From positions 76,752,120-76,816,119 of the forward strand of contig NC_060259.1 of NCBI RefSeq assembly GCF_921293095.1: a stretch of 64,000 nucleotides of DNA, written 5' to 3'. Position 1 is the stretch's first letter. Each line of letters opens with the position of its first letter. The stretch comes from Ischnura elegans (Eukaryota; Arthropoda; Insecta; Odonata; Coenagrionidae). This document shows positions 45,801 to 48,800 of the stretch, piece after piece. The translations under genes and the position numbers were made by a program. The notes under the pieces were generated by a model. The model was given only the letters and a program-made list of their open reading frames with translations, was not told the origin of the DNA and did no database searches.

Positions 45801-48800
45801 CGGCGAGATGGAGTGGAAACGTGACATAATGAAAATGAAAAAGCAGGAGCAATTTCCACAATTTTACATTTATTAATACGACCGGTTTCGCTTTTCAGCA
45901 TCATCAGGTACAAAAATATCAAGTGCGCTGTGCTTAAATAGGAAGGTAGGAGGGGGTGGTGGGCGGTAAGGCGGGGGAAGGGGATGGAGGGAGGGTGTAC
46001 AGTCACGGGGCTTGGGAAAACTGAGGATGGGGTTAGAGAGGAGTATTCCTCAGTTTTCCCAAGCCCCGTGACTGTACACCCTCCCTCCATCCCCTTCCCC
46101 CGCCTTACCGCCCACCACCCCCTCCTACCTTCCTATTTAAGCACAGCTCACTTGATATTTTTGTACCTGATGATGCTGAAAAGCGAAACCGGTCGTATTA
46201 ATAAATGTAAAATTGTGGGAATTGCTCCTGCTTTTTCCCCTTTTCCCTCATGGCACAACACATATACTTGTAGGGGTAAGGAAAGATTGAGGTCAACTTT
46301 CTTCAGAGGGTTTCTCCAAAATATCTGGAGTGCCCATATTTCGAGTAACTCAATTATGTATTTATTGCTGAACCTGGAAACAATCTACTATGCAACTCAA
46401 ACATCCAATTTGGAAATTAATCAGCCTTTGGGAGGCCTTTTTCAATGAAAATAAATCGAACTTACGTGGAGATTTTTGCTTGCTGGATGAAAAGCTGTCC
46501 ACCTGAGTTTGCCGTCGTATTTTCCCTGGATTCTCATCGATCATCAGCGAATCCCCGTCACTGTCATCATGAAAGTCATAAATGGAGTAATTGGCAGGAC
46601 TCCTTTCAGGAACATTTCTGCAAGTATAAAATATTAATGGAAAAATATCTTATATTAGAAATAAAATGAAAATAAAATTAGATAACTCATGCACTCACTC
46701 TAACTTCTTCCTAGCCATATTTTTCTCTTTCTCCTTGGGAGCTAAACTACTGGTAATCTTAGGTCTTTTCACTTTTGTTTTTATTTTCAGATGAAGATTA
46801 GAGTCCAGTGACACAGACCAAGGCTTTCCTAAAGAGTCTGGAATCTCACTCAAAGTAACATTTTCTGGTTTCTTTATCTTTGGTGTTACTGTGTAGCTGA
46901 TTGCGGCTCCAGGTGAATGATGGCTCAGTGGTGGCTTTGTTAGGGTCAGCTTAATGGGAGATTTAGGTTTTTCCTTCACAAGCTGTATTGGCTCTTTTTT
47001 CTTAACAGGAGACTTCAAGTTTGACTTGAGAAGACCTTTGTCTATGAACTGGAAATTAGAATTTTGTAAGTTTAAAGTTGAGGCTTAATGTCATTACACA
47101 CTTCCAGTATTATACAAGAAGAAATTAATGACAACTTTACAAATTATGGACAAAATATTGAGCTTATCTCTAAACAAAGTTATAAAAACATACATAAGAC
47201 TATATCCCTCATGGATAACAGCAAAAATAACAAAATGGATTAAAATTCAATTGAAATAAAAGTATACATCAAGGAAATTCATTTTCCAAGAATTATGGCA
47301 GGCACCTGTCACAGTGAGTAGAATTACCGCCACAATTTGAAGTAACAAGATTCAATACCAGATATATTTTCCAATAGGCATCCTTTAATACAAAATCATC
47401 CTCCCCAGATACGTTTTTCTTCAAATACATGAGCGATGTATTAAGATATGTGTGAGTTGCTGACACAACAACTGACTCATTATTTCTCTTTTGTGAGTAA
47501 AATGAACACAAATTGTCAAAAACTTGTTTTCTAAGTTTAGAAGCATTTTAACTTCATGCCAGTAGCACAATGGGTACAGGTAATGAACAATGGCACATAC
47601 TACGGAAACGAGGAGAAAATGAATGCAGTACCATAGAGTTTATATTACTATAGGAGACTCCACTAGGGAGCAGTTGCCATGTTACTGTCAAACCGGTCAC
47701 TGAGCATTAATTCGCACTCCGAATTTGGTTGCAACTCCAACTAGTGGTGCAAGGATTGATTAGTGTCAATGTATTTGGCTTTGATATACCCTCCTTCAGA
47801 ACTCCATTTAATTCATACTGTCGTGGTTCAGTGGTGACAGTGTTCGTCATGTGCTGAGGTTCTAAGATCCATTCTAGTCTGTGGTACTTTAAAAAAAATA
47901 TTTCCTGCTACTTTTTCTTCTACAGATGCCTGCTTTTCGCAATTACTTTCATGAAATTCACTGAAATTTTCACTTTTTCTGTGTGAAAATTTTTGTGCTC
48001 ATGTGGTGATGTTTTCCCAATTTTTCCCTTTCAATTATTTTATTTCCTTGTGGCAACATGACCCATTTTTAAGATACCCATGTATGTACTTCGATTCCTT
48101 TTATATTGCAATACGGTATTGTGGACTCTTAGAATTTAAGCCTTGTTCTCGAATCGTTAGGAAAGAACCATTGAAATCCAGATAGAGTGAGCCAGGGAGG
48201 AAATGGGTTCTTCCTCCAGAGTTAGGGACGGTCAACCATCTTTTCAGGGAGCGGTCACTCATTTAACAAGAGGCTCCAGAGAAGCGTCTTTGTGGTAAAT
48301 TTTGCTTTTTCCATCGGTACTCAATTTTAGCAATGCAACTTTCTCTCACATCTAATAGCCTCCAAAGGATACATTATGTTAGGTCAGTTGTACACAAAAA
48401 TCTCCAATTGGATATACCCAAAGCCATGGGATTTATATCCTGGTGTGTCTATATAATGCGGCTACCATCCTCCTTGATCTAAGACACTGCCGTCCGAAGG
48501 ACTAAATGGGCAAACGTATTATGGAATGAGGGGATTTGGCAGTCCCCAAGGGATTTCTCCTCCTAGAGCACGACCCATGATGTCTAAGCAGACGCAACAC
48601 CCTTTCAAGTAGCGGGGGTCATCCCATCGATGAACGTGATGGAAATCTGGGTCCTCCCGGAGCAGCTCTCCATACATGAAGCCGAGGCCTGGGCAGCCCT
48701 CAAGGCAGTGGTGCACACCATAACGATCCTTCCAAAGTTTTCTAATATTGTTGTACACTCAGAAAACCAGTCTGTTGTTTACGCCTTAGAAAAAGGCAAA

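Follow-up and report, generated by a model that had tools for sequence, protein, structure and literature searches.

Why should two hammerhead-type motifs face each other across a palindrome inside a KDM7-type gene, and do they act on the RNA of that gene? We addressed this in the window, a stretch of 64,000 nucleotides of Ischnura elegans DNA on the contig labelled C19, and by searching the 1.72 Gb of this one genome. In line with the original prediction, the window holds a palindrome with a hammerhead-type core in each of its inverted arms. The arms lie at 45837-46027 and 46047-46237, are 191 nt long each, are complementary at 189/191 positions and flank a 19-nt spacer, while the cores, CTGATGATGCTGAAAAGCGAAACCGGTC, occupy 46167-46194 on the plus strand and 45880-45907 on the minus strand. 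The limits first given for the palindrome (45838-46236) caught the inverted arms, but the true unit spans 45792-46236 and is bounded by 11-bp target-site duplications (TSDs), CCCCTTTTCCC, at 45781-45791 and 46237-46247; the scripted longest shared match of 13 nt at this locus takes in adjoining common letters. We read this 445-bp unit as a shortened head-to-head Penelope-like element (PLE), namely a 5'-truncated insertion for which reverse transcription was primed at the target by both of its strands, and give this reading a probability of roughly 0.8.

Like all copies below, the window copy was mapped in sense orientation, counting from the predicted cleavage site as position 0. Its left arm (45792-46027, sense on the minus strand) carries a longer outer end, or 'tail', in which we read by eye a 10-bp deletion relative to other copies. 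The 19 nt at the centre (46028-46046, minus strand) are part of this longer left arm rather than a separate spacer, and left arm and centre together reach a 5' extent of -166. The right arm (46047-46236, sense on the plus strand) extends to -147, and its 'short' outer end stops at CTGCTTTTT. Scripted scoring placed this copy under 'other' owing to the tail deletion; judged by eye, it has a tail on the left and a short end on the right. It has no reverse-transcriptase frame of its own.

The plus-strand motif is a minimal hammerhead at 46163-46198 with its cleavage site after 46194, and an identical one lies on the opposite strand at 45876-45911, with its cleavage site between 45880 and 45879; the predicted cuts (46194/46195 and 45880/45879) agree with those proposed earlier. 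The parts are a stem I of GUAC/GUAU, the core CUGAUGA, an extra U, a stem II of GCU-GAAA-AGC, GAAA and a self-complementary ACCGGU, and the hallmarks CUGAUGA ... GAAA ... UH cleavage site are present. Within the 64-kb window the two cores are the sole exact matches to CTGATGA-N11-GAAAC; at up to two mismatches there are 6 matches against a chance mean of 7.26, which is not above chance. Two of the helices first proposed needed revision: stem II pairs, but only if one extra nucleotide (U) sits between CUGAUGA and the helix (U-GCU-GAAA-AGC), and the palindromic ACCGGT of stem III is in place, but as a loopless element whose full pairing is possible only between two molecules. By its sequence the motif is a minimal hammerhead of the PLE type. 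This form is that of the minimal type I hammerheads of PLEs and Terminons: PLE hammerheads are described, in the parts of these papers available to us, as minimal and usually lacking helix III and tertiary contacts (PMC6155905) and as minimal or atypical type I variants (PMC7229834). The families sampled here have the extra nucleotide between CUGAUGA and stem II, a feature that may set them apart from published PLE hammerheads.

As a check, the original prediction had named a covariance-model search, with the lack of a hit counting against it, and the outcome came close to that. No Rfam family reached its gathering score anywhere in the 64-kb window, and with a 101-nt query the sole hammerhead match was HH9 (13.9 bits, E 0.43, against a cut-off of 52). 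At a loose threshold, the region 44000-48000 gave 60 Rfam matches, mostly microRNA models on the long hairpin and none of them a hammerhead. The lone 66-nt ribozyme region has a predicted fold of -7.9 kcal/mol that departs from a strict hammerhead, and stems I and II of the hammerhead by themselves come to only -1.5 kcal/mol; because of these predicted energies and folds, hammerhead activity as a lone RNA is doubtful.

The gene around the palindrome is of the kind named at the outset. An open frame at 53346-53639 on the minus strand, outside the element, matches PHF8 and KDM7 structures (best E 2e-24, to PHF8) and holds a JmjC exon of a host KDM7/PHF8-type gene, while Pfam reported no family on it. 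For a second frame, 50592-50894, the Jumonji helical domain of Pfam was matched only weakly, short of its cut-off, and the PDB gave no match. The insertion probably lies within an intron of a minus-strand KDM7/PHF8-type gene.

To place the palindrome in the genome, we used patterns drawn from its arms. A 34-nt pattern inside the arm, spanning GAAACCGGTC and what follows, has 352 + 345 = 697 matches genome-wide at up to 3 mismatches, against 0 for the reversed-pattern control, and many of the matches listed (100 of the 697) consist of a minus match followed by a close plus match. A pattern beginning just after the cut site has 480 + 502 matches genome-wide. Longer copies begin at about C12:62462225 and about C13:9229007. 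The first, of about 2.9 kb, has a frame that is open for 684 codons from stop to stop, two pieces of which match RVT_1 (Pfam; E 9.6e-11 and 4.6e-10); the second has the same frame, interrupted. By eye, the C12 frame also contains YVDD and a GIY-YIG-like motif, GVYEVICDCGASYVGQTGRDFTTRMKEHKK, although Pfam returned only RVT_1 for that piece (E at most 0.001), and reverse-transcriptase matches in the PDB are weak (best E 0.0015). On the RVT_1 match, YVDD and the GIY-YIG-like motif, we file the family as putatively Penelope-like, and the link to such elements proposed originally gains a dispersed family whose longer copies carry an RVT_1-matching frame. As a side observation, the C12 copy shows a template jump from -293 to -797 on the RNA, and a similar jump of several hundred nucleotides lies in the tail arm of a copy of a second family, B (L119, C1:18183260-18184680).

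The commonest layout among the copies examined is a minus arm followed by a plus arm, with the 5' sides joined and the 3' ends facing outward. The two outer ends differ: one is a tail, about 42 nt longer than the other, which stops at a fixed internal site. The tail ends at +94 in family A (...CCTCAGACTAT) and at +88 in family B (...AATCAAGTTT), a different, independent sequence, and the short end lies near +50 in both (...TTTTTCATTTTCAT in A, ...CGTTTTATTATTA in B). Among 83 family A rows free of the locus edge, 66 pair a tail with a short end, and none has two tails or two short ends; the remainder comprises 12 rows with one arm scored and 5 with an unclassified end. In family B, 16 of 20 rows have one of each, 0 have ends alike and 4 are single-armed or unclassified. 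Taken together, 82/82 insertions scored at both ends have exactly one tail and one short end, and a further 21 rows are single-armed or unclassified. The tail lies on the left or the right in 31/35 insertions of A and 11/5 of B. At least 8 exact letters are shared between the flanks in 86/103 rows (median 12), compared with 7/103 (median 5) when right flanks were reshuffled, and in 78/82 insertions scored at both ends, which gives TSDs of about 12 bp.

These counts refer to a sample in which many scored loci came from pair lists or from likeness to the palindrome: one set of loci was chosen by similarity to it, and the rest from the first 100 places listed for each pattern search. For the post-cut-site pattern, the loci used were places absent from the 34-nt pattern listing, and 17 pairs and 3 singles were retrieved from the listing of a search for hammerhead cores that returned 1441 of them. 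Left out of scoring were 16 loci that repeat represented places (four via the C12 and C13 reads) and L079-L082, and edge-cut rows were excluded (L035, L083 and L100 in A; L122 in B). Among uncounted cases, L064, L094, L107 and L119 (two rows) seem from the tables to have one end of each kind, as do L098 and L105 by eye. L043 has a tail stub of only 12 nt (by eye), L056 and L084 are unclassified, and L021 and L029 have a short direct duplication at the centre. Single-armed copies are present (e.g., L053, L071, L072, L076). L081 and L082, family B arms 3 kb apart with a gap of about 23 nt between the two loci retrieved, resemble by eye the ends of one element, and this putative longer element would have a tail at one end, a short end at the other and a TSD of 12 bp.

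The route by which PLEs insert is unsettled: self-priming has been proposed (2013, PMC3846280), and dual-strand internal priming has been observed in vitro (2024, PMC11167929). If each end chose its site independently and at even odds, 82 mixed pairs would have a chance of 2 to the power -82. The rule of one tail and one short end points to a new regularity, in which the two target strands would use different start sites; as judged from the genome copies, it fits two-strand priming with strand-specific sites and does not fit simple fold-back self-priming. In the open-access literature (titles, abstract starts and passages), we found neither an exactly-one-tail rule nor strand-different start sites. 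The 82 scored insertions in two families are genomic evidence for priming on both strands from strand-specific sites, and the rule can be counted in any PLE-bearing genome.

In the sequence of events that we propose, the PLE protein would make a staggered cut in the target, and each target 3' end would prime antisense cDNA at one of two fixed internal RNA sites, a different one per strand, which in family A would lie at about +94 and about +50 from the hammerhead cleavage site. Both cDNAs would run toward the 5' end of the RNA, and their free ends would be joined by repair, often leaving filler letters. The hammerhead, with a core that coincides with likely start codons (CUG-AUG-AUG), lies a short way upstream of both start sites. 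On this reading, the opposed hammerhead pair is a by-product of insertion, and any ribozyme role belongs to the RNA of the parent element, not to this locus.

Self-priming, in which the 3' end of a single cDNA turns back and uses the cDNA as its own template, giving an inverted repeat, was put forward for Adineta Penelope elements on an antisense template (PMC3846280, in its available text). It could account for arms that are near-identical and share variants above chance, as well as for the perfectly palindromic junctions of L047, L051 and L062. Fold-back, however, would duplicate the outer end and yield two like ends, which 0/82 scored insertions have, and here the second end lies at a fixed internal site adjoining the TSD. 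The longest copies also have very unequal arms (-891 v -2299; -2304 v -266), and the arms of L005 and of L011 differ at a site that varies among copies of the family, although later mutation could also have this effect. We consider self-priming an unlikely origin for these insertions. Inversion by priming on the second strand is familiar from LINE-1 twin priming, where the second strand primes reverse transcription and the resulting segments usually do not overlap. Second-strand priming with inversion is common to both cases, but here the two arms overlap in a shared 3' region, with a fixed second start site.

The junctions bear on a further alternative, that the head-to-head unit is itself mobile and copied whole, as a DNA transposon of MITE-like or foldback type whose two ends are unequal. 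Constant outer ends, inverted repeats and TSDs would suit such a unit, and identical junctions recur in two groups, three perfect GTAC palindromes (L047, L051, L062) and the pair L048 and L066. Overall, the family A junctions are varied: 61/64 strings compared are distinct, the arms of A reach 5' to between +57 and -2304 (those of B to between -30 and -256), and many junctions contain private filler letters, some of them copies of neighbouring sequence (L005, L045). Because of the variable extents and distinct strings, the junctions appear mostly to have arisen insertion by insertion, which argues against whole-unit copying. With longer copies extending into the reverse-transcriptase frame and the tail on either side, we rejected a fixed foldback unit copied whole as highly improbable.

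In line with two-strand priming, paired 5' extents correlate within insertions in both families (A: rho 0.55, n=66, or rho 0.39, n=34, P 0.02 when a peak of extents at -30 is removed; B: rho 0.77, n=16). Among 132 arm ends of family A, 25 lie at -29 and 15 at -31, and a TATTTAA box begins at -60 in the window copy, that is, 29-31 nt upstream of these ends. Because of this spacing, the commonest short copies of family A may represent run-off at the mRNA 5' end, as suggested by the arm ends together with this one TATA-like box. Family B arm ends have no comparably sharp peak, and run-off at the transcription start was dropped as a rule for both families, as it fits A and not B.

Variants common to both arms of an insertion number 7 among 45 two-arm insertions, against 0.6 expected and a maximum of 4 in 2000 shuffles; at least 2 of these fall at a CpG position, which is likely to mutate repeatedly, and in this comparison one misaligned arm of L036 added 12 false variants. 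Shared variants would be expected if one RNA was copied twice, if the RNAs came from a single source locus, or if one cDNA served as template for the other. As a test of one versus two template RNAs, the variants leave the matter undecided, with above-chance sharing set against the L005 and L011 differences. Among the 66 scored A insertions, 4 (L003, L065, L068, L077) have a tail arm that ends close to the short start site (+35 to +57), and 4 others have a short arm that ends past -15; an argument for one shared RNA from these 4 + 4 cases was set aside as resting on too few.

The closest counterpart that we found is the Poseidon PLE of Anolis carolinensis (PAc), for which the following is taken from the available text of PMC11167929. 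In vitro, the purified protein of this PLE cleaves both strands of the target and extends them, and reverse transcription starts at two adjacent internal sites, which accounts for the genomic 'tail'. The element described here resembles PAc in being a PLE with a reverse transcriptase and, going by the motif read by eye, a putative GIY-YIG domain, in having a hammerhead at the start of the ORF whose cut site follows the start codon closely (the PAc ORF reportedly begins where stem II does), and in its two adjacent internal start sites with a tail between them, of 30-40 nt in PAc. It differs in that PAc forms tandem repeats and shows no strand difference in vitro, the start site being alike on top and bottom strands, whereas the Ischnura copies examined are mostly head to head with a strand-specific site, as known here from genomic sequence. 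The in vitro data accordingly do not predict a partitioning of start sites between strands, a counterpoint to our reading, as are the single-armed copies that exist alongside head-to-head insertions.

Among Penelope elements of Adineta vaga (e.g., Pen2a; PMC3846280, available text), inverted pLTRs likewise occur, with a 31-bp tail at one pLTR and TSDs of 8-10 bp in the cases described, and head-to-head is the commonest inverted arrangement. The tail is termed optional there and self-priming is proposed, whereas here it is at exactly one end in 82 scored insertions of two families. Metazoan retrozymes (PMC7229834, available text) are also small repeats with type I hammerheads and are suggested to be moved by PLEs, but they are tandem repeats with canonical hammerheads, unlike the inverted, minimal copies here.

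We then asked what the genome-wide sample says about the hammerhead itself. Gapped-pattern core searches of the same genome returned 32, 1441 (family A included) and 51 cores, and for the 1441-core search, sequences were taken from the first 100 places listed. CUGAUGA, GAAA and the UC cleavage site were imposed by the search patterns, so their presence says nothing on conservation. The extra nucleotide was set to U by the pattern in the 1441- and 51-core searches; the 32-core search left it free, and there it is A, C or G. Probably, the extra U is common since the core then reads CUG-AUG-AUG, likely start codons. Stem II forms at least 3 pairs in 28/44 distinct cores from the 32- and 1441-core searches if the extra nucleotide is allowed and in 1/44 if it is not (this set omits a spurious core, C2:43290631, in which two family A cores run together). 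A hammerhead core search of viral contigs gave no match.

Stem II covaries among families. For this comparison, 53 distinct inserts from the three core searches were pooled and one representative was kept per cluster: at linkage 3, 9/15 representatives have 3/3 pairs against 3.0 expected, a value equalled in 2/10,000 shuffles, with similar outcomes at linkage 2 (11/21 vs 4.1 expected; 2/10,000 shuffles) and linkage 4 (5/7 vs 1.7 expected; 41/10,000 shuffles). This systematic clustering supersedes an earlier test on hand-picked representatives (13/19 vs 4.6 expected). Helices in the sample include GCU/AGC, GUCGC/GCGAC, GAUAC/GUAUC, GAAG/CUUC and GACGC/GCGUC. The re-pairing of stem II across families speaks against a hammerhead-like sequence that sits in a PLE and has no function as RNA. 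Such a sequence would explain why no Rfam family reached its gathering score, why stem III is loopless and stems I and II are so weak alone, and why the CUGAUGAUG letters overlap likely start codons; with the covariation taken into account, we judge this explanation unlikely as well.

What the hammerhead might do for the parent element is a more tentative matter. One possibility, to which we give slightly less than even odds, is an obligatory two-strand reaction by a single asymmetric ribonucleoprotein that assigns one start site to each strand, such that every complete insertion is head to head with one tail; the hammerhead may then be the assembly point, with ACCGGU joining two template RNAs. 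In retroviruses, a dimer site joins two RNAs in an analogous way. Evidence against the joining step is that, of 15 distinct tetranucleotides from the inner part of stem III, only 5 are self-complementary once G-U pairs are counted, a set that includes CCGG (families A and B), UCGG (another multi-copy family) and UUAG; some of the others may come from decayed copies. For the Anolis element, hammerhead mutations are reported to be without effect on insertion and unprocessed RNA is taken as the main substrate (PMC11167929, available text). A further hammerhead family, CTGATGATGAAGTATCACTTCGAAATCGGTC, occurs genome-wide (e.g., C7:29644552-29644585). Its stem III, AUCGGU, is self-complementary solely via G-U pairs, and, unlike families A and B, it had no two exact matches close together in the 51-core search.

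For the locus itself, the original prediction was that self-cleavage could cut the KDM7 pre-mRNA intron, which would make the motifs a functional ribozyme pair that acts on this RNA by cleavage or regulation. The core is intact in both arms and the pair does sit in a KDM7/PHF8-type gene, but the same structure occurs at many other loci, as the usual insertion product of the element, and a functional arrangement is not supported. Moreover, the 445-nt transcript is predicted to form a very stable competing hairpin (-391.7 and -384.8 kcal/mol for the two strands), which makes cleavage of the KDM7 pre-mRNA at the palindrome doubtful, and the Anolis PLE hammerhead is reported to have cleaved only once PLE protein was added (PMC11167929, available text), which weakens it further. 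We regard a functional pair at this locus as very improbable. Head-to-head PLE insertion instead explains opposed hammerhead pairs inside animal genes, and such palindromes are not to be taken as regulatory ribozymes; the pattern hints at the insertion mode of a poorly understood class of mobile elements.

Other repeats are present in the window. Near the host gene, the opposed frames 54110-54331 (plus) and 54355-54654 (minus) share a stretch and form another inverted repeat. Pieces of a DDE-type (mariner/pogo-like) transposase lie in more than one frame at 7578-9024 on the plus strand, as read by eye from the list of open frames, and a near-identical open frame occurs three times, at 12863-13099 (plus), 15375-15662 (minus) and 32662-32901 (plus), as a dispersed repeat.
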